62,637 nt of DNA from Pseudomonadota bacterium (lineage in GTDB: Bacteria > Pseudomonadota > Gammaproteobacteria > Burkholderiales > Thiobacillaceae), in contig JAUXXW010000132.1 in NCBI GenBank assembly GCA_030684775.1, positions 1-62,637 on the forward strand. The letters are read 5' to 3'. Below the pieces are notes generated by a model, which was given only the letters and a program-made list of their open reading frames with translations, made no database searches and was not told the origin of the DNA. A program made the position numbers and the translations under genes. Positions 2,737-49,744 of this stretch are shown here, one piece after another (the stretch's first letter is position 1; every line of letters starts with the position of its first letter).

Positions 2737-3408
2737 TCAAGGCGTCGCCACGAACACCCAATCCGCATAACGGCTGGCGCCTTCGAATGCGGCGTTCTCA
2801 TGAGTAAAGCCGGCTGTTTTTCTCGGGAGTGCGGTGGAAGTGCTGTGCACACCCGTGATCCCCCCCTCCTCGTCACGCACCAGCGCCCAGTCGCCGCCGC
2901 TGATCGGGTCCGGCCAGAGGCGGCGCAAATGGCGCACGGTGTGGGGGTAACGCGGGTCGCGCGTCAGGTCCGCCAGCTTCTTCGGAAAGTGCTTGTCCGG
3001 GCTCGGCTCCAGCCGGTAATAGCTGACGAGGGCGCGACGATACTGGTCGCCGATAAACAGCAGTTCGGCCTCCTTTTCCCGCTGACTCCGCATGCTCCAG
3101 GTCGTGCCCACCGCCGCCAATAGCAGACCGAGAACCGTCACCAGAAAGAGCAGGCCAAGCAGGGTGAAGCCGGATTGGCGAGGGTTGCCCCGCAACCTCG
3201 CCACTTCGCCAAAAAGCCCATTCGCGTTTGCCGGTGAAACGGCAGGAGCAGAGGTTCCCCCCTTTTTAAAAGGGGGGTTAGGGGGGATTTCCGAGGTGGG
3301 CGACCAGGTAAATGGCGCTAAATCCCCCTCGATCCCCCTTTGGAAAAGGGGGAGGCCACACGCCCCGCCGGTGTTTCCACTGCCGCCGCTCCGCTTACCA
3401 CTCCGCAT
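2737..3408 (-). CDS. type II secretion-like pseudopilin, last gene of the secretion operon
   Basis: Pseudopilin-like protein with a class III prepilin-type signal RQSGFTLLGLLFLV, where the peptidase would cut after Gly, then one hydrophobic helix and a soluble C-terminal domain (REKEAELLFIGDQYRRALVSYY). The start is uncertain. ATG 3408 overlaps the end of the upstream pseudopilin gene (stop 3397-3395), but the frame then reads through repeat K1 (3257-3353), giving an implausible 78-residue leader. GTG 3204 would give a normal short leader but lacks a ribosome-binding site. Either K1 was inserted in frame into the leader, or initiation moved downstream. No gene follows within the operon. Confidence 0.75.
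   Translation of the reverse strand: MRSGKRSGGSGNTGGACGLPLFQRGIEGDLAPFTWSPTSEIPPNPPFKKGGTSAPAVSPANANGLFGEVARLRGNPRQSGFTLLGLLFLVTVLGLLLAAVGTTWSMRSQREKEAELLFIGDQYRRALVSYYRLEPSPDKHFPKKLADLTRDPRYPHTVRHLRRLWPDPISGGDWALVRDEEGGITGVHSTSTALPRKTAGFTHENAAFEGASRYADWVFVATP
3257..3353. repeat. paired-hairpin repeat, family K copy 1
   Basis: Two C-run/G-run hairpins (CCCCCCTTTTTAAAAGGGGGG and CCCCCTTTGGAAAAGGGGG-like), joined by a linker beginning GGGGATTTCC and ending CTAAATCCCCC. It lies inside the open frame of the pseudopilin, encoding the PPNPPFKKGG-type segment. Confidence 0.9.
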
Positions 3409-3775
3409 AGGCTCTGCCGTCCGCGCCTTCACCCGTCGCGCCGCTATGCACGTCACGCACACCGGCGCCCTCCTCGCCCGCTTCGGTTACCCAGGTGTCG
3501 TTGCGCTCGGTGAGGGGATCGGTTGGTACGGCGCGCAGGTAGCGCGCCTCCGCCAGGGTCTCCAGGCTGTCGGGCCAGCGGCCCTTGTCGGCGTTGTACT
3601 GGTCGAGGGCGTCGCGCAGGGTGGCGAGGTTTTCCCGCAGCACGGCTTCCTTCGAGCGCTCGATGTGCTGGAAATAGCGCGGCGCGGCGATGCTAAGCAG
3701 GAGGGCGATGATGGACAGCACCACCAGCAGTTCGACCAGGGTGAAGCCACGCTTGTTTGCCACCCTGTTTACCAT
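3395..3775 (-). CDS. GspG-like pseudopilin
   Basis: 126 aa. The prepilin signal lies directly after a nine-residue leader: KRGFTLVELLVVLSIIALLL, with the expected Gly before Phe and Glu at +5. The body (APRYFQHIERSKEAVLRENLATLRDALDQYNADKG) resembles major pseudopilin GspG, which polymerises in the periplasmic pseudopilus after cleavage and N-methylation. The DP and NDTW motifs near the C-terminus resemble the calcium-site loop. Its start overlaps the stop of the upstream pseudopilin (ATGGTAA), indicating coupling. This copy has the most normal N-terminus of the three distal pseudopilins. Confidence 0.85.
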   Translation of the reverse strand: MVNRVANKRGFTLVELLVVLSIIALLLSIAAPRYFQHIERSKEAVLRENLATLRDALDQYNADKGRWPDSLETLAEARYLRAVPTDPLTERNDTWVTEAGEEGAGVRDVHSGATGEGADGRAYAEW

Positions 3776-4428
3776 TCCCGAACCCTCACGCCGTTCAAGC
3801 CGATTTTCGCTGACAGGGAATAGACGTCGAACACGTCCTCGCCCTCCTTGGGATCGTCCGGCGGGCTGGCGTAGCTGCGTTTGCCCCAGGTTTCGCCGGC
3901 GCCGGCGTCACCCGAGGTGGCGAAGGGATCGCGCGGCAGGCGACGCAGGAAGTAGATGGGGCGGAGGTCGGGCCGGGTGATGTCGGGCACGCCTTCGGCC
4001 AGGACTTCCAGATTCGGCGGATAGCCGGAAGCGTCGGCCGGGGCCGCGATCTTCTTGTCGAGCACGGCCTGCCGGTAACTATCGAGGGCGCCGCGAATCT
4101 GGCGCAGGGCCAGGCGCAGTTCGCCTTCCTTCTGCCGTTGCTGGGTCACTTCCAGCAGCGGCACGGCCATCCAGGCGAGCACACCGACGATGGCGACGGC
4201 CACCACCAGTTCGATCAGGGTGAAGCCGTGGGAGGCTTTATCTCCCCCCTTTCTCAAGGCACGGTTCGCGTCGACCATCGATGAAGTCGGCGCCCGAGTC
4301 CCCCCCTTTTCCAAAGGGGGGTTAGAGGGGATTTCCGCGACGCTTGCGCGAGTGCATACGTTGCAAATCCCCCCCGGCCCCCCTTTGAGAAAGGGGGGAG
4401 AAAGACGGCTCGCGGGATCATGGGTCAT
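3769..4428 (-). CDS. pseudopilin with repeat-derived N-terminal leader
   Basis: 219 aa from an ATG that overlaps the gspD stop (ATGA at 4428-4425). The prepilin signal is SHGFTLIELVVAVAIVGVLA near residue 66, far later than the usual 5-25. The intervening leader (SPPFLKGGPGG...NPPLEKGG) is encoded by repeat K2. An alternative ATG at 4278 gives an 18-residue leader but has no visible ribosome-binding site. The body (QRQKEGELRLALRQIRGALDSYRQAV) is typical of GspG/H-type pseudopilins. The repeat seems to have landed between the coupled start and the signal; which start is used cannot be told from sequence. Confidence 0.8.
   Translation of the reverse strand: MTHDPASRLSPPFLKGGPGGICNVCTRASVAEIPSNPPLEKGGTRAPTSSMVDANRALRKGGDKASHGFTLIELVVAVAIVGVLAWMAVPLLEVTQQRQKEGELRLALRQIRGALDSYRQAVLDKKIAAPADASGYPPNLEVLAEGVPDITRPDLRPIYFLRRLPRDPFATSGDAGAGETWGKRSYASPPDDPKEGEDVFDVYSLSAKIGLNGVRVREW
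4300..4400. repeat. family K copy 2
   Basis: C7TTTTCCAAAG5 hairpin and a second CCCCCCTTTGAGAAAGGGGGG hairpin separated by a linker of about 45 bases. It is embedded in frame in the leader of the pseudopilin at 3769-4428. A further half-hairpin (CTCCCCCCTTTCTCAAGG) lies just downstream at 4242-4259. Confidence 0.9.
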
Positions 4429-6308
4429 TGCGCGAGGGGCGGGACCATGACGACGGGGAGCGCCGGCTCGGGTTCGCTGGCGTTTTGTCCGGGTGCCGGG
4501 CGGGCGGCGCGCACGCGCAGGGGCTGGTCGCTGGTCTGGCTTTCGGTGCCGGCGAAGAATTCGGCGTCGGCCAGTTCCGGGCGCTCGATGTTGCGCAGGA
4601 TGCGCGGGGTGATGGTGAGGATGATCTCGGTCTTGTTGAGTTCGTCACGGTTGCTGGAGAACAGGCGGCCGATGATGGGCAGGTCGCCGAGGCCCGGCAC
4701 CTTGCTGGCGCCGGCGCGGTCTTCGTCGGAAATCAGGCCGGCGAGCACCTGGGTTTCGCCGTCCCTCAGGCGCAGCACGGTGTTGGCGTTGCGGCTGCCT
4801 AATTGGTAAGTCAGCGTGCCGGTGGCGCTCTTCACCTCGCGCACGATGTTGGAGACTTCCATGCCGACCTTGATGGTGACATCGCCGTCCAGCCCCACCT
4901 GCGGCTCGACGTCGAGCTTGAGGCCGACATCGAGATAGGCGACCGATTCGGAGGTCACCCCGGTGGAAGTGACGTTGGAAGTAATCACCGGCACCTTGTC
5001 GCCGATGTGGACCTTGGCTTTCTCGCGACTCTTCACGCGGATGCGCGGATTGGCGAGGAGGTTGACGTCGCTGGCGTCCTTGCGCAGATTCAATGACGGA
5101 TTGGGGAAGACACCAATCTTGGTGGCGTCGATATTCTTCAGCATGTCCACGGTCAAAGCCTGTGATACCTGGTTAGTCGTGTTGGTGGTGGCGACGGCCG
5201 TGGTCGTGGCGGTGTTGATGTCCTTGATGCTCAAGACCGAGAACTGGCTGGGCCACTGCACCCCCAGATCCTGCAGCCGGTTACGCTTCACCTCCATGAT
5301 CTCCACTTCCAGCATCACCTCGGCATCCGGCCGGTCGGCCATCTGCACCAGTTTTTCCGCCAGACGCACCACTTCGGGGGTGTCGCGCACCGCCACCATG
5401 TTCAGTTTTTCGTCCACATACACGTCCTTGATCCGCGCCATGGTGCGGATCAGGGTCATCACCTGTTTGGCGTCGGCGTGGGCGAGGAAGAAGCTTTTCA
5501 CCACCTGTTCCTGGTAGTCCTTCACCTTGTTGGGCTGGTTGGGGTAGATCAGCACGGTGTTGCCGTTGAGGATTTTCTTCGCCAACTGGCTGGTGGCAAG
5601 CAGGGCATCGAGGGCGTCGGCGATGGCGGTATCGCGCGCGAACACGGTGGCTTTCTGATCCACCCGCACGTCCTTGTCGAACACGAAATTCAGGCCGGAC
5701 TGGCGGCTCAAGGCGTCGAACACCTGCTTCAGCGGTGCATCGCGGAATTCCAGGCTGACCGGGCGGCGGTAGCTGGCGCCCAGTTGCGGCACCTCGACGC
5801 CGCGCGTCTGCCCCGCTTTTTCCTCGATCTGCTTGAGCAGGTGTTGCGCCTCCGGGTTGCCCGGTTCCCGCGCCAGCACGGCACGCAAACGGGCGCGCGC
5901 GGCTTCCGGTTCGTTTTTCGCCAGGTAATCCGCCGCTGCCTTCAGCAGCCTCTGGTTGTCCAGGCGCACCTGGATTTCGTTGAGGGCGCTGACGACGCGG
6001 GCATCGTCGCCATACTGCCGGGCCAATGCACGATAGGCCGCACCCGCTTCCTCCAGCTTGCCGGACCGGGCCTGTGCCTCGGCGGCGAACAGCCCCTTCT
6101 GCAACAGCGCCTCGCGCGCCCGGACCAGGGCGGTGCGGTACTGGGCATTGCCGGGATGCGCGGCCACGGATTTTTCCAGTGCGGCCACCCCGGCGACATC
6201 CTTGCCTTCGGCCAGCAGCCTTTCACCTTCGCGGAAAGCCGGGTCGCTGGCGCAGGCGGCCAGGCTCAGCGCGATGGCGACGAGCAACATCAATAACAGC
6301 CGTTTCAT
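4425..6308 (-). CDS. gspD: GspD/PilQ-type secretin with TPR-like lipoprotein N-terminus
   Basis: 627 aa. The signal peptide ends in a lipobox-like LAAC (about residue 19). A TPR-like alpha-helical region follows (about 25-165, EGERLLAEGKDVAGVAALEKSV), then the secretin N0/STN domain (PVSLEFRDAPLKQVFDALSRQSGLNFVFD), an N1-type repeat, and the C-terminal secretin pore domain ending VPGLGDLPIIGRLFSSNRDE and TEIILTITPRIL. It would form the outer-membrane channel of the secretion or pilus machine. Fusion of TPRs to the secretin is less usual than in textbook GspD and recalls MSHA-type or Tad-like systems. Starts by ATGA overlap with the gspC-like gene and ends by ATGA overlap with a pseudopilin. 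Confidence 0.92.
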   Translation of the reverse strand: MKRLLLMLLVAIALSLAACASDPAFREGERLLAEGKDVAGVAALEKSVAAHPGNAQYRTALVRAREALLQKGLFAAEAQARSGKLEEAGAAYRALARQYGDDARVVSALNEIQVRLDNQRLLKAAADYLAKNEPEAARARLRAVLAREPGNPEAQHLLKQIEEKAGQTRGVEVPQLGASYRRPVSLEFRDAPLKQVFDALSRQSGLNFVFDKDVRVDQKATVFARDTAIADALDALLATSQLAKKILNGNTVLIYPNQPNKVKDYQEQVVKSFFLAHADAKQVMTLIRTMARIKDVYVDEKLNMVAVRDTPEVVRLAEKLVQMADRPDAEVMLEVEIMEVKRNRLQDLGVQWPSQFSVLSIKDINTATTTAVATTNTTNQVSQALTVDMLKNIDATKIGVFPNPSLNLRKDASDVNLLANPRIRVKSREKAKVHIGDKVPVITSNVTSTGVTSESVAYLDVGLKLDVEPQVGLDGDVTIKVGMEVSNIVREVKSATGTLTYQLGSRNANTVLRLRDGETQVLAGLISDEDRAGASKVPGLGDLPIIGRLFSSNRDELNKTEIILTITPRILRNIERPELADAEFFAGTESQTSDQPLRVRAARPAPGQNASEPEPALPVVMVPPLAQ

Positions 6309-6808
6309 GGCGAAATCCTCAAGGTCTGCTGCATGTTCAAAGCGGTCCAGGTGAAGACAAGAGCATCGTCGCTCGCCTGATCCAGATGCCAGCCGGCCAG
6401 GGTGTCGCCGACTCGCGCTTGCAGCACGCGGTTGCCCTGGTCCAGAAAAACCACGTCCTTGCCGCCTTCTTTCCAGCGCCCCAGGTACTGGAACGGCAGG
6501 GGCGGCGCCAGCGGGGCCGCTGGCGGCAGTTCCACCCGCTTAGGCGCGGGTGGCGGCGGCGGCTGCCAGGTCTGCGCCGGGAACAGGTCGGCGCGCATGG
6601 CGCCAAGTTGGGAGTCCGGTTGCCGTAGGGTGGATAAGCGAAGCGCATCCACCATTCCGGGCTTGGCGGGGGTGGATGCGCTTCGCTTATCCACCATACC
6701 GTTTTGTTTCGCCACGGCGCCCACCACCTCTTCTTGCGGCTGCGGCCAGAAAACCGCTGCCAGGGTCGCCGCCAGAACCAGGGCGAGCAAGATGTGGCGC
6801 GGCTTCAT
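6305..6808 (-). CDS. GspC/PilP-like periplasmic linker protein with in-frame repeat
   Basis: 167 aa: one N-terminal membrane anchor (ILLALVLAATLAAVFW), a proline-rich linker (QPPPPPAPK...PPAAPLAPPLP) and a small C-terminal domain (FQYLGRWKEGGKDVVFLDQGNRVLQARVGDTLAGWHL) like the secretin-contacting domain of PilP, GspC or MshK. Between anchor and linker, about residues 36-62 (GMVDKRSASTPAKPGMVDAL...) are encoded by palindromic repeat B1, 78 bases long and in frame. The start overlaps the stop of a repeat-derived mini-ORF (ATGA). The repeat falls in a likely flexible region, so the protein may remain functional. Confidence 0.8.
   Translation of the reverse strand: MKPRHILLALVLAATLAAVFWPQPQEEVVGAVAKQNGMVDKRSASTPAKPGMVDALRLSTLRQPDSQLGAMRADLFPAQTWQPPPPPAPKRVELPPAAPLAPPLPFQYLGRWKEGGKDVVFLDQGNRVLQARVGDTLAGWHLDQASDDALVFTWTALNMQQTLRISP
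6624..6701. repeat. palindromic repeat, family B copy 1 (inside the gspC-like gene)
   Basis: Arms read CGTAGGGTGGATAAGCGAAG... and the complement ...CTTCGCTTATCCACCATACCG. It is 78 bases (26 codons), stop-free in the coding frame, and 90% or more like copy 2 at 6833-6909. Confidence 0.9.
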
Positions 6809-6974
6809 CGCGCGGTCTCCAGGTTCAGTTGCCGTAGGGTGGATAAGCGAAGCGCATCCACCATTCCGGACGTGGCGGGGGTGGATGCGCTTCGCTTATC
6901 CACCCTACGGTCTTGCGTCCGTTCACGCGCGAGCGGGATCTGGCGCGGCTTCATTGTGCCGGCTCCAGGTTCAG
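6783..6974. repeat. 46-bp imperfect direct repeat flanking palindrome B2
   Basis: Copies at 6783-6828 and 6929-6974 match at about 39 of 46 bases (GCGAGC..GAT.TGGCGCGGCTTCAT...CTCCAGGTTCAG). Between them lies palindrome B2 (6833-6909). The duplicated segment spans the gspM end and gspC-like start. It resembles a long target duplication formed on insertion. Confidence 0.8.
6805..6954 (-). CDS. 49-codon bridging mini-ORF carrying repeat B2
   Basis: Its ATG (6954-6952) overlaps the stop of the gspM-like gene and its TGA (6807-6805) overlaps the ATG of the gspC-like gene. The first five codons (MKPRQ) nearly repeat the first five of the gspC-like gene (MKPRH). It looks like the original coupled start of that gene, displaced when the repeat inserted with duplication of the flank. 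A peptide product is unproven; its main effect may be ribosome transit. Confidence 0.55.
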   Translation of the reverse strand: MKPRQIPLARERTQDRRVDKRSASTPATSGMVDALRLSTLRQLNLETAR

Positions 6975-7451
6975 TACGAAGCGCAGGCGCACATCCAGTT
7001 CTGTCGCCGCGATGTCGTCGCGGCGCAGTTCCAGGCTTTCCAGAAGCAGCGCCGGGTTGTCGTCGAGCACTTCCGCGAGGAAGGCGCGCAGGGTCGGATA
7101 GGGGGCGATCACCGGCAGGTCGATGCGCAGAGACCGGCTTTCTCCCGGCTTGCCGGTCTCCGCGTAACGGCCTTCGTCGAGGCTCAAACCGTGCCGGCGG
7201 GCGGCGAGGAACAGGCGCGGCAAAGCGATTTCCGCGCGCTCACGCGGCAAGGTAATCGGTTTGCGCACACGCTCGGCGGCGGCCGGCAGGAGGGCGCGGC
7301 TGGCGGCTTCCGCCTGCCGGGTCGCGATTTCGTCCTCCAGGCCGAGGTTGGCCAGAAGATCGGTCGCCAGGGCGGCCAGCAGCAGCACGGCGCCCAGCGC
7401 ACCGGGCCAGCCGAGACGGGCGAACTGAAACTGGATGCGCGCGGTATTCAT
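6951..7451 (-). CDS. GspM/PilO-like inner-membrane component
   Basis: 166 aa bitopic protein: a short cytoplasmic N-terminus, a transmembrane helix (GALGAVLLLAALATDLLANLGL), a short periplasmic coiled segment and a ferredoxin-like C-terminal domain (SLRIDLPVIAPYPTLRAFLAEVLDDNPALLLESLELRRDD), as in PilO, GspM or MshJ. It would pair with the GspL-like protein in the inner-membrane platform. Its start overlaps the stop of a repeat-derived mini-ORF (ATGA at 7451-7448) and its stop overlaps the start of the next mini-ORF. Confidence 0.8.
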   Translation of the reverse strand: MNTARIQFQFARLGWPGALGAVLLLAALATDLLANLGLEDEIATRQAEAASRALLPAAAERVRKPITLPRERAEIALPRLFLAARRHGLSLDEGRYAETGKPGESRSLRIDLPVIAPYPTLRAFLAEVLDDNPALLLESLELRRDDIAATELDVRLRFVLNLEPAQ

Positions 7452-7561
7452 CCTGAAATACTCATCACACCCGTAGGTTGGGCAAAGCGCAGCGTGCCCA
7501 ACATGGTGGCGGTGTGTTGGGCACGCTGCGCTTTGCCCAACCTACGGCTATTCAGGTTCAT
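7448..7561 (-). CDS. 37-codon bridging mini-ORF carrying repeat A1
   Basis: The ATG (7561-7559) overlaps the gspL-like stop; the TGA (7450-7448) overlaps the gspM-like ATG. The middle ([10 protein letters not shown]...[10 protein letters not shown]) is encoded by palindrome A1 (7472-7546). Both ends use ATGA, so ribosomes could pass from gspL to gspM without releasing. Product function unknown. Confidence 0.5.
   Translation of the reverse strand: MNLNSRRLGKAQRAQHTATMLGTLRFAQPTGVMSISG
7472..7546. repeat. palindromic repeat, family A copy 1
   Basis: 75-bp inverted repeat, ends CGTAGGTTGGGCAAAGCG and complement. Other copies: 8590-8664, 22667-22798, 27329-27458, 28487-28561, 48492-48568, and a half copy at 55684-55714. 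Confidence 0.92.
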
Positions 7562-8820
7562 GGCGTCCCCCAATTCAGTCGAATCTCGAAGCGCACCGGC
7601 TGCTGCTCGGCTTCGAGCTGAACCTCATGCTGGACCAGGGTGGCATCGCCGAAACCGGCGGCGCGCAAGCTGTCGAACCAGGCCAGCATGTCGGCGGCGC
7701 TACGTGCTTCGGCGGTAATGCGTGCGTCGCCGCGTGCGGCGTCGCCGCGCAGGGACAACAGGGCGATCTGTTTCGGCCGTTGGCTTTCCAGACGGTTGAG
7801 CAGTTCGCCCCAGGGCCGCGCCGGGGTAGCCACCATGCCGCGCTCAGGGCGCGGCTTGGCGGCCACAGGGGTTTCCGGGACGGTCAAGGTGGCGAGTTGT
7901 TCCGTCAGCGTCGCATGGCGCGCGCCGACCAGGGCGGCCAGCCCGAGGCCCGCAGCCAGCAGCAGCCAGGCCACCAGCGGTGGGCGTGGCCGGGTTTGCA
8001 GGAAATCGGGCTCAGCGCGCCCGGAAAGGACGGCGGTCTCCGGCGCGTTGGCGAGGATACGGGTGCCGGGCCAGTCGCCCACCACGCCGGTGCCGACCAG
8101 GAGCGTAGGCGCGTCCCCGAGGCCATCAATCAAGGCGGCGCGCGCCAACAGGCCGGCCATCGCCTCCGGCTCACCACGCGCGCTGTCCAGCGCGACCACC
8201 TTGCCGCTTGCCAGGCTGGCCAGCGTGAGGCGGCCACTTTCCAGCAAAGCCAGACGCGCCGTGGCCCGGCCACCATAGCGAGCCAAGGCCAGCGCCGGCC
8301 AGGAGGTCACGGAAGCGGCACTGAGGCCCGCGCCAGTCAGGGTGTGCAGGAGTTCCGCCCACTGGCCACTATCCAAGCCGGATGCCAGGAGAGGCTCGCC
8401 CACCGGGGCGGGGCGAAAGGCGAGGCGCCAGTTCGCGGACAGTTCGCCAAAGCGTTCCGCCGCCTGGCTTTCCGCCCAGCCCCGGGTTTCTTCGTGGTTC
8501 AAGCGGGTGGGGGCGCCGGGCAGCAGCCAGAGCGGGGCGAAATGCGAGGACAACACGATGGCCACGCGGCCGCTCGAAGTAGGTTGCTGCGTAGGTTGGG
8601 CAAAGCGGAGCGTGCCCAACAACCCGCCGCCATGTTGGGCACGCTTCGCTTTGCCCAACCTACGACCGTCCAGGAGGTTTTGCAGCGCGGCGACGGCGCC
8701 GGCCCAGCCCGGCTCGGTCGGCACGGCGGTATGTATCGCGCCGCGCGCGCGCAGGACGACCCGGTCGGGGCCGAGGTAGAGGGTGGCTGGTGTGAACAAA
8801 TCAGCCCACGAAGGTGACAC
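7558..8820 (-). CDS. GspL/MshI-like actin-fold protein with in-frame repeat
   Basis: 420 aa. The N-terminal two thirds resemble the actin-like cytoplasmic domain of GspL or PilM-type proteins (LYLGPDRVVLRARG..., RVAIVLSSHFAPLWLLP, EETRGWAESQAAERFGE). One transmembrane helix follows (PPLVAWLLLAAGLGLAALVG, about 285-304), then a periplasmic domain. Residues 53-77 (RRLGKAKRAQ...LRFAQPT) are encoded exactly by family A palindrome 8590-8664: 25 codons, inserted in frame between two predicted strands of the actin fold. It overlaps gspE by 20 bp upstream and a mini-ORF downstream. It would connect the GspE ATPase to the membrane platform. Confidence 0.82.
   Translation of the reverse strand: MSPSWADLFTPATLYLGPDRVVLRARGAIHTAVPTEPGWAGAVAALQNLLDGRRLGKAKRAQHGGGLLGTLRFAQPTQQPTSSGRVAIVLSSHFAPLWLLPGAPTRLNHEETRGWAESQAAERFGELSANWRLAFRPAPVGEPLLASGLDSGQWAELLHTLTGAGLSAASVTSWPALALARYGGRATARLALLESGRLTLASLASGKVVALDSARGEPEAMAGLLARAALIDGLGDAPTLLVGTGVVGDWPGTRILANAPETAVLSGRAEPDFLQTRPRPPLVAWLLLAAGLGLAALVGARHATLTEQLATLTVPETPVAAKPRPERGMVATPARPWGELLNRLESQRPKQIALLSLRGDAARGDARITAEARSAADMLAWFDSLRAAGFGDATLVQHEVQLEAEQQPVRFEIRLNWGTP
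8590..8664. repeat. family A copy 2, inside the gspL-like coding sequence
   Basis: 75 bp, a multiple of three, with no stop in the gspL frame. Ends CGTAGGTTGGGCAAAGCG and its complement. Same length as A1, showing the insertion is a complete element and not drift. Confidence 0.92.
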
Positions 8821-10456
8821 GGTTCGCTTCCTCCAGCGTGGTTTCGCCCTGCCGCACCAGATCGAGGGCGGCTTCGCGCAAAGGACGCACGCCGGCGCGG
8901 GCGGCGGCTTCCTTGACCTGGCGGATAGGGGCGCGGGCGACGATGAGTTCGCGCAGTTCGTCGTTCAGGCGCATCAATTCGGCGATGGCGCGGCGGCCCT
9001 TGTAGCCGCTGCCGCGACAGTGGGCGCAGCCGGGGCCGGCGCGGAAGCTCCAGCCGGCGCCGCCGTGGATGCCGGAGAGCGCCAGCAATTCGTCATCCGG
9101 CGTCACCGGCACGCTGCAACGCGGGCAGTTGACCCGCACCAGACGCTGCGCCAGGACGCCGTTGAGGGCGGAAACCAGGCTGTAGGGGTCGACCCCCATG
9201 TGCATGAAGCGGCCGATCACGTCGAACACGTTGTTGGCGTGCACGGTGGTGAACACCAGGTGGCCGGTGAGCGCGGACTGGATGGCGATCTGCGCGGTTT
9301 CCGGGTCGCGGATCTCGCCCACCATGATCTTGTCCGGGTCGTGGCGCAGGATGGAGCGCAAGCCGCGCGCGAAGGTCAGGCCCTTCTTCTCGTTGACCGG
9401 AATCTGCAACACGCCGGCCAACTGGTATTCCACCGGGTCTTCGATGGTGATGATCTTGTCGCGCCCGGTATTGATCTCGGACAGCGCGGCATAAAGCGTC
9501 GTCGTCTTGCCGGAACCGGTTGGGCCGGTGACCAGGAACATGCCGTAAGGCTCGCGCGCCATGCGGCGGATGGACTCCAGCGCCGCGCCCGCGAAGCCGA
9601 GACGTTCCAGGGTGATGCCGGAGAGTTCGTCGTCGAGTTGCTGGCGGTCGAGCACGCGCAGCACGGCATCCTCGCCGAATACGCCGGGCATGATGGAGAC
9701 GCGGATGTCCACCTCGCGGCCGCGCAACTTCACCTTGAAGCGGCCGTCCTGGGGAATGCGCCGCTCGGCGATGTCCAGTTCGGCCATCACCTTCACCCGC
9801 GAGATCACCTGTTCCGCCATCTCGCGCCCGGCCGGCTGGGCGATGCGGTTGAGCACGCCGTCGATGCGGTACTTGATGGTCAGTCCCTGGGCATCGTTTT
9901 CCAGGTGGATGTCGGAAGCGCCGCTGGACAGCGCGTCATACAGCGTCGAGTGCACCAGCTTGATGACCGGCGAAGCGTCGGCGCCGATGGCTTGTAGCGA
10001 AAGCTCCTCGGCGCGGCCATCGTCGCCGCCCACGGCGGATTCGCCCAGCGCGCTATCCATCGCCTTGAGGTTCACCTCCAGGCGATGCAGCCAGGCCAGG
10101 ATGTCCTCGCGCCGCGCCAGGGCGGGCCGGAAGGCGAAGTTGAGGCGGCGTTCCGCCCATTCCAGCAGCTCGGGTTTGAGCGGATCGGCGAACACGAACC
10201 AGAGATTGCCGTCGCCATCACGGCAGGCGGCGCACTCGCGCGCCAGGGACTGCGCGAACGGCAACAGCTCGAAGGCGGGCGCCATGTCGCGCAGGTTCGC
10301 CATGTCCAGCGCCGGGTAGGAAAACGCGTCAGACAAGGCGCGCATGAAGGCTTTGCCGTCCAGCCCGGAGAGACGTTCCAGCGCCGCCAGCGCGGTTTCG
10401 CCGTGGACGATGGCATGTTCCCGCGCCTGGCGGATGAGATCGGAGGTGATGGTCAT
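8801..10456 (-). CDS. gspE: GspE/PilB-type secretion ATPase
   Basis: 551 aa from ATG 10456 (MTITSDLIRQAREHAIVHGE). It has an N1E/MshEN-like N-terminal domain (to about 160), then the T2SSE core: Walker A GPTGSGKT, Asp box TIEDPVEYQL, Walker B with MVGEIRDPETA, and His-box residues. A tetracysteine zinc motif (CPRC...CAHCRG) lies near the C-terminus. It powers pseudopilus assembly on the cytoplasmic face. The open frame continues upstream through repeat K3 to 10639, but the family N-terminus begins at MTITSD. It overlaps the gspL-like gene by 20 bp. Confidence 0.93.
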   Translation of the reverse strand: MTITSDLIRQAREHAIVHGETALAALERLSGLDGKAFMRALSDAFSYPALDMANLRDMAPAFELLPFAQSLARECAACRDGDGNLWFVFADPLKPELLEWAERRLNFAFRPALARREDILAWLHRLEVNLKAMDSALGESAVGGDDGRAEELSLQAIGADASPVIKLVHSTLYDALSSGASDIHLENDAQGLTIKYRIDGVLNRIAQPAGREMAEQVISRVKVMAELDIAERRIPQDGRFKVKLRGREVDIRVSIMPGVFGEDAVLRVLDRQQLDDELSGITLERLGFAGAALESIRRMAREPYGMFLVTGPTGSGKTTTLYAALSEINTGRDKIITIEDPVEYQLAGVLQIPVNEKKGLTFARGLRSILRHDPDKIMVGEIRDPETAQIAIQSALTGHLVFTTVHANNVFDVIGRFMHMGVDPYSLVSALNGVLAQRLVRVNCPRCSVPVTPDDELLALSGIHGGAGWSFRAGPGCAHCRGSGYKGRRAIAELMRLNDELRELIVARAPIRQVKEAAARAGVRPLREAALDLVRQGETTLEEANRVTFVG

Positions 10457-10466
10457 GGGCGTGTGG

Positions 10467-10667
10467 TCAACCTGAAATTGCTCGACGAGCGGACGGTTCG
10501 CCCCCCCTTTTCCAAAGGGGGGCCGGGGGGGATTTCTCCAGGGGCCGCGCAACCGCAACCGTTGCCAAATCCCCCTCACTCCCCCTTTGATAAAGGGGGA
10601 AGGCGCGTTCGCCGGCACCAGTGCCGAAATCAACGTCACACGGGGAGGTGGCCATGCCGTGCTTCAT
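10467..10667 (-). CDS. 66-codon mini-ORF carrying repeat K3 between gspF and gspE
   Basis: ATG 10667-10665 overlaps the gspF stop (ATGA). The frame passes through family K repeat 10501-10600 (PLYQRGSEGDL...APLWKRGG) and stops 10 bases before the gspE start. An open frame across the whole repeat would keep ribosomes near gspE. No recognisable domain. Confidence 0.45.
   Translation of the reverse strand: MKHGMATSPCDVDFGTGAGERAFPLYQRGSEGDLATVAVARPLEKSPPAPLWKRGGEPSARRAISG
10501..10600. repeat. family K copy 3
   Basis: C7TTTTCCAAAG6 hairpin, a linker of about 45 bases, then a CCCCCTTTGATAAAGGGGG hairpin, located between gspF and gspE. Confidence 0.9.
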
Positions 10668-11848
10668 TCGATGCTCCCCGCCAATTCGAAGATGGGCAGA
10701 TACAGCAGAACGACGATCAACCCCACCAGCAAACCGATGACGGCCATCAGCAGGGGCTCGAAGATACGGGTGAAGCTTTCCACGAAGCGGCTGGTTTCTT
10801 CGTCGTGGAAGCTGGCGAGGTTTTCCATCATCTCGCCCATCTGGCCGCTTTTTTCCCCCACCCGCAGCAGGCGCGCCGCCACCGGGGTGGTGAGGCCGGC
10901 CTGTTGCATGGCTTCGGAAATGGGTTGGCCGGCGCGAATGTGGCCGGCGGCGACCGCCACCCGCGAGCGCAATTCCAGCGTCAGGAGGCCCGCCGCCATG
11001 TCCAGGGCGGGCAGGATGGGGGTGCCGCCGGACAGCAACATGCCCACGGTGCGGTAGAAGCGGGTGAGCTGGAACACCCGCAAACGCTCGCCCAGGCCGG
11101 GCAGACGCCAGGCCAGGCGCGCCACGGCGGCGCGCGCGGCGGGACGCGTGGCGGCCCAGGCAAAAGCGAGCAGGCTGCCCGCGAAACCGAGGGCGGCGCC
11201 CAGGCCATGCGCGTCGATCCAGACGCCCAGGCCCATCAAGGCGCGCGAGGCCCAGGGCAGGCGCTCCAGGTTGTCGGCGTAGATGGAGGCAAAGCGCGGC
11301 GTGACGAAGCCGATCAGGAACAGCGCCACCAGCCCGCCCAGCACCAGCAGCATGAGCGGATAGATGGACGCGGAAATCACGCTGCGCCGCACCACGTCCA
11401 CCCGTTCCTGCCAGGCCACATAGCGCGCCAGGGCGGGCGCCAGATCGCCACTGCGTTCAGCGGCGCGCACGCTGGCGGCATAGAGCGCGGGAAACACGGC
11501 GGGGAAATGGCCGAGCGCGACGGAGAAGGCTTCGCCCTGATTGATCCGTTCCAGCACCCCGGCCAGCACCTGGCGCGGTTCGTTGCGAGTTTCCTTTTCC
11601 AGCAGGGTTTGCAGGGCCTCGATCAGTGCCAGGCCGCTGGAAAGCAGGGCCAGGAGTTCGCGCGTGAACAGCAGCAGGGGAAAATGCGCGCGCCGGGAGA
11701 ACAGGGTATTCAGTCCCCGCTCGGGCCGCACCGCCAGCACGGTCAGCCCCTCGCCACGCGCCTGTGCCGCCGCCTCGGCAGCCGTGGCAGCTTCCAGGCG
11801 CAGACTGACGCGACCGGCGGCGTTGAGGGCGCGGACCTGGAAGATCAT
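10664..11848 (-). CDS. gspF: GspF-type inner-membrane platform protein
   Basis: 394 aa with two T2SSF domains (about 60-185 and 265-385) and three hydrophobic helices (LMLLVLGGLVALFLIGF, a middle GLGAALGFAGSLLAFAW, and LLMAVIGLLVGLIVVLLYLPIF at the end). Polytopic core of type II secretion and type IV pilus machines that couples GspE to pilin extraction. The start ATG overlaps the stop of a mini-ORF (ATGA 11848-11845). The gspF stop in turn overlaps the start of another. Confidence 0.92.
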   Translation of the reverse strand: MIFQVRALNAAGRVSLRLEAATAAEAAAQARGEGLTVLAVRPERGLNTLFSRRAHFPLLLFTRELLALLSSGLALIEALQTLLEKETRNEPRQVLAGVLERINQGEAFSVALGHFPAVFPALYAASVRAAERSGDLAPALARYVAWQERVDVVRRSVISASIYPLMLLVLGGLVALFLIGFVTPRFASIYADNLERLPWASRALMGLGVWIDAHGLGAALGFAGSLLAFAWAATRPAARAAVARLAWRLPGLGERLRVFQLTRFYRTVGMLLSGGTPILPALDMAAGLLTLELRSRVAVAAGHIRAGQPISEAMQQAGLTTPVAARLLRVGEKSGQMGEMMENLASFHDEETSRFVESFTRIFEPLLMAVIGLLVGLIVVLLYLPIFELAGSIE

Positions 11849-12042
11849 GGGACGGAGACCCCCCCCTTTTTCAAAGGGGGGTTAGGGGGGATTTCCGAGA
11901 CGGCTGCTCTGGCACACGTCGCTAAATCCCCAATCCCCCTTCGCAAAAACAGGAAGCCACATGCACTACCGTCACCTGTGAAAATCCCCCCCCGCCCCCC
12001 TTTGAAAAAGGGGGGAGTCAGCCCGATTTGTTCGCGAGTCAT
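11845..12042 (-). CDS. 65-codon bridging mini-ORF carrying repeat K4
   Basis: ATG 12042-12040 overlaps the gspG stop and TGA 11847-11845 overlaps the gspF start. The peptide (MTREQIGLTPPFFKGGRGG... NPPLKKGGVSVP) is almost entirely repeat-encoded. This is the clearest double-ATGA bridge across a long (about 160 bp) insertion. Confidence 0.5.
   Translation of the reverse strand: MTREQIGLTPPFFKGGRGGIFTGDGSACGFLFLRRGIGDLATCARAAVSEIPPNPPLKKGGVSVP
11860..12017. repeat. family K copy 4 (one and a half units)
   Basis: Three hairpin-like segments: C7TTTTTCAAAG6, a degenerate CCCCTTCGCAAAAAC, and C7..CCCCCCTTTGAAAAAGGGGGG. It is longer than the usual 100-bp unit, as if part of a second unit were added. 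Confidence 0.85.
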
Positions 12043-12467
12043 TGCCAACTCACGATGTCGGCGTCTTCACCGTTGCCGCCGGCCTGGCCGTCGCGGCCGA
12101 AGGACCAGAGATCGTATTCGCCGTGTTCACCCGGCGCGCGGTATTGGTAAGGGTGGCCCCAGGGATCGTTGGGCACGGTTTTTCTCAGATACGGCCCCTG
12201 CCAGCGGCTCTCCCCGGAGGGTTGTTCGTTGAGCGCGGCGAGTCCCGACTGGGAAACCGGGTAGTGCCCCACGTCGAGGCGGTATTGGTCGAGGGCGTCT
12301 TCCAGGGCTTTCACCTGCGCGCGCGCCACTTTCACCTCGGACTTGCCCACCTGGGCGAAATAACGCGGCGCCACATAGCCGACCAGCAGGCCGAGGATGA
12401 CCAGGACGACCAACAGTTCCAGCAGGGTGAAGCCGGCGGCGCGGGAAGGTATTTTCATGACGCTCAT
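12039..12467 (-). CDS. gspG: major pseudopilin GspG
   Basis: 142 aa with prepilin signal AAGFTLLELLVVLVILGLLV and the conserved GspG body (APRYFAQVGKSEVKVARAQVKALEDALDQYRLDVGHYP), a WQGPYL-type loop, NDPWGHPYQY and the C-terminal calcium-site region YDLWSFGRDGQAGGNGEDADI. Forms the shaft of the periplasmic pseudopilus. The ATG overlaps the stop of the barrel gene (ATGA 12467-12464); a second Met three codons in is possible. First machine gene of the operon. Confidence 0.95.
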   Translation of the reverse strand: MSVMKIPSRAAGFTLLELLVVLVILGLLVGYVAPRYFAQVGKSEVKVARAQVKALEDALDQYRLDVGHYPVSQSGLAALNEQPSGESRWQGPYLRKTVPNDPWGHPYQYRAPGEHGEYDLWSFGRDGQAGGNGEDADIVSWQ

Positions 12468-13228: not shown

Positions 13229-13249
13229 TTCAGCATCCCCGGTTCGTTG

Positions 13250-34450: not shown

Positions 34451-34998
34451 CGAAACATCCCCCGTGATTGCATGGCCTGTGCCGATTCATGCGCATTCGC
34501 CAGTGCCCGGTCGAGCAGCCAGGCGGCGGCGTGGGCGGCGGCGCGGTAGCGGGCGCGCAGGCCGGCCGGTCGTGGGCTGCGGCTTTGCAGGCCGAGGCGG
34601 AACTCCGCCAGGGTGCGCTTGAGGCCCAGCGACTGGCTCACCGCCAGCACCAGCAGGAAGGACAGACGGCGGGAGAAGGCCAGCGCCTGGAACAGATTCA
34701 CGCGCTCGATGAACAGGAAGGTGAGCAGGGCCATCGACAGTACCCGCAGGTTGACCGTGAGCAGCCAGTCCAGCGGCAGGGCGCGCGACTGCCACCAGAA
34801 ATAACCGACATAGGCCAGGGAGACCGTGCCGCTGAATGCCGCCGTGGCCAGCAAGGCGCGGCGCAATAGGCGAATGGCATCACGCCCGCAAAGCAACAGC
34901 ACCGCGAGCAACCCGCTCGCCAGCCAGAGCGGCGCGGTCAGCCAGGAAACGGTGACCAGGGCGAGCAGCCAGGCCGCGAGCTTGCCGCGTTCGCTCAT
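34447..34998 (-). CDS. cbiQ: ECF transporter T component CbiQ
   Basis: 183 aa, shorter than the usual 225-260. Four or five hydrophobic helices (LAAWLLALVTVSWLTAPLWLASGLLAVLLLC, AAFSGTVSLAYVGYFWW, LRVLSMALLTFLFIERV) and the ATPase-coupling motif ESAQAMQSRG at the C-terminus. Start at ATG 34998, which overlaps the stop of a repeat-derived mini-ORF. An almost identical start (MTERGKFA against MSERGKLA) lies 65 bp upstream, overlapping the cbiM stop. Confidence 0.88.
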   Translation of the reverse strand: MSERGKLAAWLLALVTVSWLTAPLWLASGLLAVLLLCGRDAIRLLRRALLATAAFSGTVSLAYVGYFWWQSRALPLDWLLTVNLRVLSMALLTFLFIERVNLFQALAFSRRLSFLLVLAVSQSLGLKRTLAEFRLGLQSRSPRPAGLRARYRAAAHAAAWLLDRALANAHESAQAMQSRGMFR

Positions 34999-35063
34999 GT
35001 CGCCAGTGCTCCAGGCCGGCGGGACGCCGGCGCTACAACCGCGAACTTGCCGCGTTCAGTCAT
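34995..35063 (-). CDS. 22-codon bridging mini-ORF with duplicated cbiQ start
   Basis: ATG 35063 overlaps the cbiM stop (ATGACTGA) and TGA 34997-34995 overlaps the cbiQ ATG. The first eight codons duplicate the cbiQ start. A partial family E repeat (35011-35038) makes up the rest. Direct copies at 34974-34999 and 35039-35064 match at 23 of 26 bases. Confidence 0.5.
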   Translation of the reverse strand: MTERGKFAVVAPASRRPGALAT

Positions 35064-35720: not shown

Positions 35721-36710
35721 TCAGAACATCGCCGAGAAGGTCGCCACGAAACGGTATTTCTCCTTGCCTTCCGCGCCCTGCAACACGGTCCCCGGTGTGA
35801 CATTGAGCCGCGTCCAGACTGGCTTCTTCAGCGCCAGGCCGAGACTCATGTTGTCCTGGTACAAGCGCATGCCGAGTACGCCATAGAGGATGTCGCCGCC
35901 GGTATTCGGGTCGGGGCCGCCCACGCCGCTGTCGTCGTCCTTGCCCAGATTCAGGTAGTTGAGTTCGACGTTGCCATCGAGTCGGAAACGCCGCTCCGGC
36001 AGGGTCATCAGGCGGTGCGAGAGGGCTGCGTAGACGCGGGTTTCCGTGCCGAATTTCATGCTGTTGCCATCCGCGTAGCGGTAGCGCTGGAAGTGCATCC
36101 GGCTCAATTCGAAGGTTGCCGTGGTGTCATCGCTGAACTGTCGGGTGGCGGTCATCCCATAGTTGAAGCTGGTTTTGCCGAAGCCCAGCGACTTACCGGG
36201 GTCGATGCTGCCGTCGGCGAGGTGGTGGTCGGCATTGCCCGTGGGCAGGCTCAGGCCGAGGTTGAGCGTGAAATGCCAGTCGGCGAGGTCGTCCAGGCTC
36301 TCGTTGGCGGGCAGCAGCAGGAAACGTTGGTCGTACTTGAAGCCGATCACCGCCGCCAGGGAAAGATCAGTGGGGCCGCGAGCGTTCAGGCCGCCGGCTT
36401 CATCCACCTTCACGTTCCAGGGCTGGAAGGCATAGCCCGAGAACCAGGGGGTGAAGCCGTAGCCGACACCCGCCAGCCAGTAGGCGTTGTAATCCGCCTC
36501 CGCCGCGAGCGGGTCGTAGGTCTTGAATTTGGCGTAATCCAGCTTCGCCAGTCCCAGCCATTTGCCTTGCGGCAGGGGCATGGAACTGGAGGTTTCCACC
36601 GGCGCGCCGGGGCCTTCCAGTCCCGCCGCGCCGAGCGAGGCGACGCCGTGGTGGGCGCGCGCGGGGCTGGCCGCAAGCAGCACCAGTAGCGCGCAATACC
36701 GCGCCTTCAT
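35721..36710 (-). CDS. outer-membrane beta-barrel protein of the metal uptake operon
   Basis: 329 aa, signal peptide MKARYCALLVLLAASPARA, mature start HHGVASLG with two histidines. Repeated amphipathic strands (GKWLGLAKLDYAKFKTYD, AYWLAGVGYGFTPWFSGYAFQPW, DWHFTLNLGLSLPTGN, TATFELSRMHFQRYRYAD) and C-terminal YRFVATFSAMF. Lies inside the nikKL-cbiMQO operon with ATGA overlap to the upstream gene, so it may let Ni or Co cross the outer membrane. This is inference from context. Confidence 0.78.
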   Translation of the reverse strand: MKARYCALLVLLAASPARAHHGVASLGAAGLEGPGAPVETSSSMPLPQGKWLGLAKLDYAKFKTYDPLAAEADYNAYWLAGVGYGFTPWFSGYAFQPWNVKVDEAGGLNARGPTDLSLAAVIGFKYDQRFLLLPANESLDDLADWHFTLNLGLSLPTGNADHHLADGSIDPGKSLGFGKTSFNYGMTATRQFSDDTTATFELSRMHFQRYRYADGNSMKFGTETRVYAALSHRLMTLPERRFRLDGNVELNYLNLGKDDDSGVGGPDPNTGGDILYGVLGMRLYQDNMSLGLALKKPVWTRLNVTPGTVLQGAEGKEKYRFVATFSAMF

Positions 36711-37333
36711 GCCTTCTGCCTACGCGCAAACAACATCAGGGAGCCGAACAGGCCGAGAATCACGGCGATGCCGACGACGATGCGCCCGTAGCGCTCGTAA
36801 GCTGGTTTGTCCGCCGTTTCGACCAGGGCGGCGGCATCGGTCTTCAGAGTGAAGTCGAGGCCGTGGCCGTCCTCGGAAATCGCCTTAACCCGCCATTCCC
36901 CGGCGCGATCCGGAAGAAACGCGATGCGCCCCTGGCCATCGCTGCGGCCGACCTGATACGGCAGCTTCTCGCCGGCGCGGTAGACCTCGTAGCCCTCGAA
37001 GCTGAAAGGCTTGTTGTCCACATAGAAGAGGCGGACCACCACCGCCTGAGCGCCGCTGACCGTGTATTGAAGATCGTGGGCGGCGGCGGGGTGGGCGAGG
37101 CAGAGCAAAGCGGCGGCTATCGCAAGGCATGAGGGTTTGCTTCCCCCTTTTTCAAAGGGGGACCGAGGGGTAAGCAGGGACTTGGCCGCCGTCTTTTGGC
37201 GGCTTAGTCCTTCGCTTAGGGGCTTCATCAGATTTGGCGACGTGCGCACCGTCGTCACCCACGGAAATCCCCCCCAGCCCCCCTTTGGGAAAGGGGGGAG
37301 TGGATGCCGTCGCGCTCGCCATGAAAGTTTCAT
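36707..37333 (-). CDS. NikL/CbiN-like periplasmic accessory protein with repeat in its leader
   Basis: 208 aa from an ATG overlapping the nikK-like stop (ATGA 37333-37330). The true secretion signal (CLAIAAALLCLAHPAAA) starts only near residue 68. Before it lie two halves of repeat K (PLPPFPKGGWGG and TPRSPFEKGG). The mature part is HDLQYTVSGAQAVVVRLFYVDNKPFSFEGYEVYRAGEKLPYQVGRSDGQGRIAFLPDRAGEWRVKAISEDGHG, then a C-terminal transmembrane helix (IVVGIAVILGLFGSLMLFA). This fits NikL of NikKLMQO systems. Whether a 67-residue extension blocks export, or an internal start is used, is open; no in-frame ATG lies just before the signal. Confidence 0.75.
   Translation of the reverse strand: MKLSWRARRHPLPPFPKGGWGGFPWVTTVRTSPNLMKPLSEGLSRQKTAAKSLLTPRSPFEKGGSKPSCLAIAAALLCLAHPAAAHDLQYTVSGAQAVVVRLFYVDNKPFSFEGYEVYRAGEKLPYQVGRSDGQGRIAFLPDRAGEWRVKAISEDGHGLDFTLKTDAAALVETADKPAYERYGRIVVGIAVILGLFGSLMLFARRQKA
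37142..37300. repeat. family K copy 5, expanded
   Basis: Hairpins CCCCCTTTTTCAAAGGGGG (from 37143) and CCCCCC..CCCCCCTTTGGGAAAGGGGGG (to 37300), with an unusually long linker of about 110 bases. Embedded in frame after the first ten codons of the nikL-like gene. Confidence 0.8.
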
Positions 37334-39535: not shown

Positions 39536-39612
39536 CGCCGGCATCCCTGCCGGCTTTGCCCTTAAAGAAGCGGGTCTGCGACCCGCCTGCCGGCAGGGAT
39601 GCCGGCGCTACA
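39531..39612. repeat. family E copy 3, providing the ends of two convergent genes
   Basis: TGTAGCGCCGGCATCCCTGC and its complement, with an inner AGCGGGTC-GACCCGC hairpin. It supplies the tatD stop codon on the plus strand and the last 16 codons plus stop of the flavoprotein on the minus strand. Confidence 0.9.
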
Positions 39613-41043
39613 TAACACCCCCAGCCCCGCCGCGCGGCCGCTGGCGAAGCAGGCGGTGAGCAGGTAGCCGCCGGTGGGCGCTTCCCAGTCGAGCATTTCG
39701 CCGGCGCAGAAGACGCCGGGCAGATCGCGCAGCATCAGGTTTTCGTCCAGGGCCTCGAAACGCACGCCGCCGGCCGTGCTGATGGCTTCGTCGAGCGGGC
39801 GCGGGGCGATCAGGCGCAAAGGCAGGGACTTGATGGCGGACGCGAGCTTTGTCGGGTCGGTCTCCGGCCCAAGCACCTCGCGCAACAGGCCGGCCTTGAC
39901 GCCGGTAATACCGACCCGGCTTTGTAGATGGCTGGAGAGCGAACGCGAGCCGCGCGGATGCGCCACCTCGGCGGTCACTCGCTCCAGCGTCTTGTCGGGC
40001 GCCAGGTCGAGCTGGAGGCGGGCGCTGCCCTCGGCCTCGATGCGGTCGCGCAGGGGCGCGGCCAGCGCATAGATGAGACTGCCCTCGATGCCGGTCTCGG
40101 TGATGACGCATTCACCCTGACGGCGGATTTCCTGGCCTTCGGCGTCCGGGCAACTGGCGACCACGGTTTTCAGCGGTTGGCCGGCGAAGCGGCTACGGAA
40201 GTGCTCGCTCCAGGCGATGTCGAAACCGCAGTTGGCGGGCTTCAATGGCGCGATGTCGATGCCGTGTTGTTGCAGCAGCGGCACCCAGGCGCCATTGGAA
40301 CCGAGCTTCGCCCAACTGCCGCCGCCGAGGGCGAGGATTACGGCATCGGCTTCGATGGTCTGATCTCCTTCTGGGGTTGCGAATAAAAGACGCAGGCGAG
40401 AGAGCGTGGTTGTTGCCGCCGGGGTTGGGGCGGCATTACAACCACGGCCTACCCCTTGCGGGTGCGCCTGCGCTACATCCACGCCTTGCCAGCGGTGGCG
40501 CATGTGGAAGCGCACCCCCGCTTCTCTAAGCCGGTGCAGCCAGGCGCGCAACAGGGGCGCAGCCTTCATCTCGCGCGGGAACACCCGCCCGGAACTGCCG
40601 ACGAAGGTTTCGATGCCCAGGCCCTCGGCCCAGGCGCGCAGGTCGCTGGCAGAGAAGGCATCGAGCAGGGGTTCGATGTTGGCGCGGCGGTTGCCGTAGC
40701 GGGAGAGGAAAGTCTCGCGTGCCTCGGAATGGGTGAGGTTGAGACCACCCTTGCCGGCCAGGAGGAATTTGCGGCCGACGGAAGGCATGGCGTCGTAGAG
40801 GTCGACCTGGAGGCCCCCCCCTTTATCACAGGGGGGTTGGGGGGGATTTGCGGAGGTGGCGGCGAGGGACGGTTGTAAAAATCCCCCCCCGCCCCCCTTT
40901 GATAAAGGGGGGAGTGACGAATCGCCCTCCTTTGGGGTGGTGGGAAGTGACGGGTTGCCCCCTTTGGAGAAAGAGGTGTGTGACGACAAAACTTCCGCCG
41001 CCATCAACCCCGCCGGGCCGCCGCCGATGATCGCGACTCTCAT
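39562..41043 (-). CDS. HI0933-like flavoprotein with repeat-encoded insertions
   Basis: 493 aa from ATG 41043, which overlaps the recJ stop (ATGA). FAD-binding MRVAIIGGGPAGLMAAEVL, AGKGGLNLTHSE and ALGGGSWAKLGSNGAW place it in the BaiN/YhiN group of NAD(P)/FAD oxidoreductases; the C-terminal FAD motif GVFCAGEMLDWEAPTGGYLLT is intact. Residues about 20-78 (SKGGNPSLPT..PPQPPCDKGGG) are repeat K6, splitting the first Rossmann helix from strand 2 (LQVDLYDAMPS). A second extra segment (AHPQGVGRGCNAAPTPAATTT) lies near 40400-40480. The last 16 residues ([16 protein letters not shown]) come from repeat E3. Substrate unknown. Confidence 0.82.
   Translation of the reverse strand: MRVAIIGGGPAGLMAAEVLSSHTSFSKGGNPSLPTTPKEGDSSLPPLSKGGGGGFLQPSLAATSANPPQPPCDKGGGLQVDLYDAMPSVGRKFLLAGKGGLNLTHSEARETFLSRYGNRRANIEPLLDAFSASDLRAWAEGLGIETFVGSSGRVFPREMKAAPLLRAWLHRLREAGVRFHMRHRWQGVDVAQAHPQGVGRGCNAAPTPAATTTLSRLRLLFATPEGDQTIEADAVILALGGGSWAKLGSNGAWVPLLQQHGIDIAPLKPANCGFDIAWSEHFRSRFAGQPLKTVVASCPDAEGQEIRRQGECVITETGIEGSLIYALAAPLRDRIEAEGSARLQLDLAPDKTLERVTAEVAHPRGSRSLSSHLQSRVGITGVKAGLLREVLGPETDPTKLASAIKSLPLRLIAPRPLDEAISTAGGVRFEALDENLMLRDLPGVFCAGEMLDWEAPTGGYLLTACFASGRAAGLGVLCSAGIPAGRRVADPLL
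40813..40913. repeat. family K copy 6, inside the flavoprotein coding sequence
   Basis: C7TTTATCACAGGGGGG and C8GCCCCCCTTTGATAAAGGGGGG hairpins in frame and stop-free. A decayed extra hairpin lies at 40920-40975 (CCCCCTTTGGAGAAAGAGG). Confidence 0.9.
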
Positions 41044-49477: not shown

Positions 49478-49725
49478 TCCCCCCCTTTATCAAAGGGGGG
49501 CTAGGGGGGATTTCTTCAAGGGTTGGGCTAGTGTCACCGTCGCTAAATCCCTGTTGAAGCCCCTACCCTTCGGTACCTCGGTCCCCCGTTGGGAAAGGGG
49601 GAAGAAAAGCGTGCGCTGATACCGTTCCCCCCTTTCCCAAAGGGGGGCTAGGGGGGATTTCTCCGGGGGTTGTGCGCGTGGGGCCGTCGCTAAATCCCCC
49701 TCGGTCCCCCTTTGGGAAAGGGGGA
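49478..49725. repeat. two tandem family K copies (7a, 7b)
   Basis: Units 49478-49602 and 49626-49725, each with two hairpins; the first has an extra segment (ACCCTTCGGTACCTCGG). They fill the prpE-prpB gap. Confidence 0.88.
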
Positions 49726-49744
49726 AGAAATGCGGCACCCTCAT
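49490..49744 (-). CDS. 84-codon mini-ORF through tandem K repeats between prpE and prpB
   Basis: ATG 49744 overlaps the prpE stop (ATGA). The frame stays open through both K units ([11 protein letters not shown]...APLWERGE... [10 protein letters not shown]) and ends 38 bases before prpB. Same pattern as in the secretion operon. Confidence 0.4.

Follow-up and report, generated by a model that had tools for sequence, protein, structure and literature searches.

The stretch of DNA analysed here, called the window below, is 62,637 nucleotides long and constitutes contig C195 of genome G000 (3,850,608 bases in 227 contigs). It holds gsp, cbi, prp and sdh genes, and seven short open frames, six of which bridge the junction between two neighbouring genes, are found among them:

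11845..12042, minus strand: bridge ORF gspG-gspF, 65 codons, from ATGA to ATGA across a K repeat.
10467..10667, minus strand: bridge ORF gspF-gspE, ATGA start, stop 10 nt 5' of the gspE ATG at 10456, across a K repeat.
7448..7561, minus strand: bridge ORF gspL-gspM, from ATGA to ATGA across a Y repeat (palindrome 7471-7547).
6805..6954, minus strand: bridge ORF gspM-gspC, from ATGA to ATGA, with a W repeat between two copies of the gspM-gspC junction.
34995..35063, minus strand: bridge ORF cbiM-cbiQ, with about 25 nt of the cbiQ 5' end on each side of a short palindrome.
59536..59697, plus strand: bridge ORF sdhA-sdhB, from TGATG to ATGA across a K repeat.
49490..49744, minus strand: open frame 3' of prpE, ATGA start, a weak case.

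Translation of the window DNA gave no internal stop in any of the seven, and in five of them (gspG-gspF, gspL-gspM, gspM-gspC, cbiM-cbiQ and sdhA-sdhB) the stop is the TGA within the ATGA of the next gene. The preliminary description had reported open frames with overlaps at both ends at gspG-gspF, gspL-gspM and gspM-gspC, and a first overlap followed by a stop 10 nt short of the next gene at gspF-gspE, and the translations agree at all four. The bridges at cbiM-cbiQ and sdhA-sdhB are likewise open and end on ATGA as described, but they do not start on one, because the first begins through an 8-nt overlap with cbiM (ATGACTGA) and the second at TGATG. The frame 3' of prpE is open with an ATGA at its start only, but its end needs correction, as it stops within the last K hairpin, about 41 nt 5' of the likely prpB ATG at 49451. 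The gene names are supported by Pfam for gspG, gspF, gspE, gspD and a pilin-like gene, and weakly for gspM, while NCBIfam models exceed their cut-off for prpE, prpB, sdhA and sdhB and match CbiM and a CbiO-type ATPase under it. Pfam gave no match for 7558-8820 or 6305-6808 and NCBIfam none for 34447-34998, so that the names gspL, gspC and cbiQ are those of the preliminary description.

Three further frames do not stop at the junction at all and continue through the repeat into the next gene, and are called fused here:

3769..4428, minus strand: frame from the gspD end, ATGA start, reading through a K repeat into the pilin-like gene.
36707..37333, minus strand: ATGA start, reading through K repeats into the gene named nikK in the preliminary description.
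39562..41043, minus strand: ATGA start; an in-frame K repeat lies close to the next gene's 5' end.

The read-through at gspD and nikK had been described before and is found at 4428 and 37333; the fused case at 41043 had not been mentioned.

The repeats that fill these gaps are of several kinds. The bridged gaps carry families K, Y, W, R, V and Z and one element with terminal inverted repeats (TIR), which are unrelated to each other. In the whole genome, the K hairpin pattern occurs at 461 forward and 461 reverse places, many of them double-counted by register, and the Y half-site pattern at 398 and 385 places, with 0 control places for both patterns, and the W repeat gave 45 matches, both strands included. 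Palindromes of families Y, W and R occur in many copies and have a GTAG end, which is absent from the K repeats. In 47 of the 48 ATGA- and GTGA-ended gaps defined below, no masked repeat base falls in the start codon of the frame; one further start lies in a palindrome loop. In-frame palindrome copies are also present within gspC and gspL.

The frames were then counted in a sample made of the window and 60 stretches picked at listed repeat places, and therefore not random, which covers 965,058 bases of the same genome with 897 genes and 672 same-strand neighbour pairs, the starts being taken from a home-made codon-score caller. A base was counted as a repeat base when it lay within a 14-mer of at least 8 copies, and every gap that measured 0-450 nt and contained 25 or more repeat bases was read in all three frames from one codon past the overlapping start. 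A frame was called coupled when it was linked (its stop overlaps a next-gene start), near (it stops within 20 nt) or fused. Gaps above 450 nt, one TAG|TG repeat gap and cbiM-cbiQ, whose 8-nt overlap lies outside the tested start types, are excluded from the counts.

In the 35 ATGA-ended repeat gaps, the frame set by the ATG was coupled in 32 (17 linked, 10 near and 5 fused), compared with 10 and 11 for the two control frames; short frames numbered 3 versus 24 and 24 (Fisher p=2e-9), and linked frames 17 versus 4 and 1 (p=2e-6). The 13 GTGA-ended repeat gaps gave 10 coupled frames versus 2 and 5 (linked p=0.003, short p=0.05). No effect was seen in the 11 TGATG or TAATG repeat gaps (4, 5 and 2 coupled by frame), nor any frame preference in the 84 repeat gaps that lack an overlapping start (24, 20 and 29). 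When the 48 ATGA- and GTGA-ended gaps were averaged by locus (27 loci), the coupled share was 0.85, 0.24 and 0.40 by frame, and among gaps with NTGA at both ends the spacing was 2 mod 3 in 18 of 24 (p=3.6e-5). A similar lean appears in ATGA-ended gaps of at least 20 nt without called repeats (20 of 28 coupled versus 10 and 11) and does not appear in the corresponding GTGA-ended gaps (10 of 20 versus 7 and 10).

The preliminary description had proposed a comparison of open, ATGA-linked frames with simulated insertions, which we ran on this sample: 73 real repeat copies were inserted, each in a randomly chosen orientation, at 75 empty ATGA pairs, and the junction was doubled so that neither gene lost its end. 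The simulated frames were linked in 0.18, near in 0.14, fused in 0.15, inside in 0.10 and short in 0.42 of cases, that is, about 0.47 coupled versus the 32 of 35 observed, and the proposal thus passed; without junction duplication the fused share was 0.13. The same description also held that only insertions that keep ribosomes moving have been kept. The bias against control frames and simulation speaks for part of this claim, and it recurs in relatives, but "only" is too strong, because 6 of the 48 ATGA- and GTGA-ended gaps have short frames and the 11 TGATG or TAATG gaps and the 84 gaps without overlap show no effect.

The gsp junctions were compared in G000 and five near relatives. At gspG-gspF the frame is linked in five of the six genomes, with gaps of 190, 367, 211, 34 and 70 nt, and near in the sixth; the 190- and 211-nt linkers are related and the rest look different. 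Of the gspF-gspE frames, two each are near and linked, one is fused and one short; at gspL-gspM the frame is linked in three genomes, fused in two and absent at an empty site in one. The gspL-gspM linker is identical in G010, and G017 has an empty site. The gspM-gspC junction is linked in two and empty in four (L032, L033, L034 and L035). Outside gsp, G019 has the same insertions at cbiM-cbiQ and sdhA-sdhB; G022 and G017 have an empty 8-nt overlap at the former, and at the latter G010 has an empty -1 overlap and G022 another repeat with a short frame. The frame from gspD is fused also in G019 and G010 and is replaced by a direct 4-nt overlap in G022 and G017, the nikK junction is an empty 4-nt overlap in G022, and the 41043 junction has no repeat in G010, G022 and G017.

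At the counterparts of 14 repeat-bearing junctions (from the window and stretch L051), the relatives offered 31 readable orthologous gaps that had an overlapping start and measured 15 nt or more; 28 of 31 were coupled in frame 0 versus 9 and 10 in the other frames. Four of the 31 were called fused although they lack an insertion, because the caller placed the next start late; dropping them leaves 24 of 27 versus 5 and 10. The repeats often differ between genomes. Of the three misses, one has its stop at +1 relative to the next start and was classed as inside. In arbitrary stretches of G022, G019 and G015, the ATGA repeat gaps were coupled in 6 of 7 versus 1 and 1, and the GTGA repeat gaps gave no support (3 of 7 versus 1 and 3). 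A test of gap length modulo 3 between genomes (the difference, where not zero, was a multiple of 3 in 20 of 29 coupled pairs and 16 of 36 control pairs) was set aside because the gaps of two linked junctions differ by a multiple of 3 by definition.

The linkers themselves were compared where gap lengths were within 25 nt of each other. Eight shared linkers, compared in nine pairings with 408 codons in total, gave pS 0.241 and pN 0.184, and thus pN/pS 0.77, versus 0.15 in 888 flanking codons. Since the orthologous gaps are coupled and the linkers are so much less constrained than their flanks, it is the frame rather than the peptide that is kept: openness and end point are conserved, and the peptide drifts near-neutrally.

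On this evidence, repeat-filled gaps between tightly linked genes, in this genome and its close relatives, usually contain a short ORF that would guide ribosomes from one gene's end to the next start. We consider it likely, with a probability of roughly 0.7, that at ATGA-overlap junctions repeat insertions persist mainly when they form such a relay frame, and the same rule probably applies to GTGA-overlap junctions. The start codon overlapping the upstream stop would open a frame through the repeat, and this frame would end on the next start or within about 20 nt of it, or enter the next gene in frame. Ribosomes would then move along the relay as they translate it, unfold the hairpin and reinitiate at the next gene, and in this way expression downstream would survive the insertion and Rho-type polarity would be avoided. 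The linkers are predicted to fold very stably: mean energies run from about -82 to -118 kcal/mol, and mean z values, relative to 15 mononucleotide shuffles per linker, from -5 to -9. Models of coupling include RNA unfolding and ribosome scanning, with Rho polarity as a further constraint (PMC12548453). Reporter work found that coupling is nearly abolished at about 20 nt (PMC10666635); because coupling depends on distance in this way, a relay may be the natural route by which a coupled junction survives an insertion. The same distance dependence also weighs against the relay, as 10 of the 32 coupled ATGA gaps are merely near.

Selection may instead have acted solely for translated mRNA, as opposed to bare hairpins exposed to Rho-dependent polarity or cleavage, with reinitiation being irrelevant. 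Untranslated RNA invites Rho (PMC12548453), the linkers are long and highly structured, and fused frames fit this explanation too. However, it does not require a stop on the next start, yet 17 of the 35 ATGA gaps overlap it exactly and 10 more stop within 20 nt, and no preference for an open frame is seen in repeat gaps that lack an overlapping start, though these too may be intra-operon. We therefore regard this explanation as unlikely.

Another explanation is that the bridges are a neutral by-product, in which an insertion at or near an ATGA duplicates it and the frame is open by chance. A junction stretch lies on each side of the repeat at gspM-gspC and is single-copy in G019 and G022, the first 25 nt or so of cbiQ are doubled at cbiM-cbiQ and single in G022 and G017, CTGGAGTTGCCGCGATGA is repeated at position 2749 of L074, and a TIR element lies between ATGAT flanks at position 12819 of L052. 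Duplication of the junction with the insertion is thus the source of the second ATGA in a minority of cases, and the ATGAs at both ends that the preliminary description had emphasized are present but partly have this simpler origin. Where the junction was duplicated, selection would have retained the copies with a fitting frame. As a general account, duplication with chance opening is improbable, since a zero-offset duplication test gave p<0.01 in only 4 of 48 gaps, two of them strongly, the simulated duplications fall far below the observed coupling and leave 0.42 short versus 3 of 35, and the spacing of 2 mod 3 runs against it. ATGA-ended junctions also do not carry repeats more often (37 of 151) than gene ends without an overlapping start do (93 of 392), and an insertion target preference for ATGA was for this reason rejected as the main cause. 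Two relatives' counterparts of junctions in L051 end differently (TAA plus 7 nt at 2671 in G019, TAG plus 2 nt at 1629 in G010 and G019), and an ancestral origin is therefore not established for every ATGA.

An artefact of gene calling or of the choice of sample is very unlikely. The starts do come from the codon-score caller, at least three linked calls are doubtful by eye (prpE-prpB, L071 5107 and L059 4421), and four relatives' sites were called fused without an insertion, but the signal stays when these are removed (29 of 32 versus 10 and 11 in the ATGA set, and 24 of 27 in the relatives), the control frames and the 84 gaps without overlap show no such signal under the same calls, and the gsp junctions were additionally read through tblastn anchors. 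That the mini-ORFs are small genes with functional peptides is least probable of all, for although several frames are open in more than one species, the gspG-gspF bridges of five genomes differ in length and are mostly unrelated in sequence, and the linker pN/pS is 0.77.

The closest precedent is the MIRU (mycobacterial interspersed repetitive unit). These elements insert at start codons and carry a short ORF coupled to the next gene at a spacing of -4 nt (Supply et al. 1997, as cited in PMC12548453), and this coupling probably limits the impact of the insertion (PMC12548453). The likeness is close, as five window bridges end on ATGA and 17 of 35 ATGA gaps are linked. However, by the wording of PMC12548453 the ORF lies within the MIRU, whereas here the start is nearly always outside the masked repeat, and MIRUs, compared here by description, are one repeat family, whereas several unrelated ones are involved here; the novelty is in these two points. 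The Y, W and R repeats resemble GTAG REPs and REPINs, which go with RAYT transposases, as GTAG-ended high-copy palindromes. Y1 transposase genes are also present in the genome (Y1_Tnp, 6 matches, 5 over the cut-off). REPs lie mostly between genes and some within genes (PMC3733652), but the K repeats lack the GTAG end and operon bridges are not a topic of the passages of PMC3733652 available to us. Native termination-reinitiation pairs share the ATGA overlaps and a strong distance dependence (PMC10666635), and the bridges, like coupled pairs, have stops and starts that overlap or lie very close; in the native pairs, however, the partners are neighbouring genes, whereas here an inserted relay stands between them. 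Rickettsia palindromic elements are in-frame palindromes in coding sequence, as in the fused cases and the copies in gspC and gspL, but they lie inside genes and have a conserved peptide, whereas the bridges are intergenic and encode peptides that drift (PMC10969869). Our literature search, with most subscription journals outside its scope, found no paper that joins REP or MITE repeats with translational coupling, and in the same limited literature MIRUs, translational coupling and operons were treated together in the review PMC12548453 only.

If the relay reading is right, many "intergenic" repeats inside operons are translated, translational coupling filters where mobile repeats survive, and the frame of an inserted repeat reveals, without expression data, whether the next gene relies on incoming ribosomes. 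What has been proposed in print for a single mycobacterial repeat family would thereby extend to several unrelated families, with relatives in which the frame is kept and the peptide drifts. It is also conceivable, but rather improbable, that relays are more than tolerated and tune subunit ratios through a toll on reinitiation, that in this genus insertion with junction duplication builds them repeatedly at the same subunit junctions for this reason, and that unrelated repeats would serve as interchangeable dosage parts.

An SD-like motif precedes the next start in 9 of 24 linked gaps, 4 of 13 near gaps and 33 of 75 empty ATGA pairs. The frequency is alike behind bridges and in empty pairs, and weak SDs are therefore no proof of dependence on arriving ribosomes. 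In G022, where the sdhA-sdhB frame is short, AAGGAGAAACC precedes the sdhB ATG, which may be an escape route, and the six short gaps of our own sample, few as they are, have an SD-like motif in three. In addition, ATGAACCTGAAT is common to two bridges and occurs also at L082, which is not a listed bridge.

All 37 codons of the linker between gspL and gspM, a mini-ORF across a Y repeat, were identical in G000, the genome containing the window, and in its relative G010, although pS in the flanking codons was 0.207. This identity may reflect recent exchange or gene conversion. Palindromes were also found in frame within gspC and gspL (names follow the preliminary description), and therefore both proteins contain repeat-encoded segments. 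The features in the window were as follows:

7448-7561, minus strand: gspL-gspM linker
6614-6706: W palindrome within gspC, in frame
8589-8664: Y palindrome within gspL, in frame
13225-13530, 16011-16142 and 21640-21879: tandem arrays, with periods of 9, 12 and 66 nt

In L052, a stretch of G000 sampled at a repeat place, an element with inverted ends CCTAGAAACCTCAGTTG (about 12583-12819) had a copy of ATGAT on either side and contained an open bridge of 243 nt.

In another relative, G019, K-like repeat matches were clustered at regular spacing on contigs C17 (about 44.7-46.4 kb) and C5 (about 101-103 kb), and this even spacing suggests tandem amplification.
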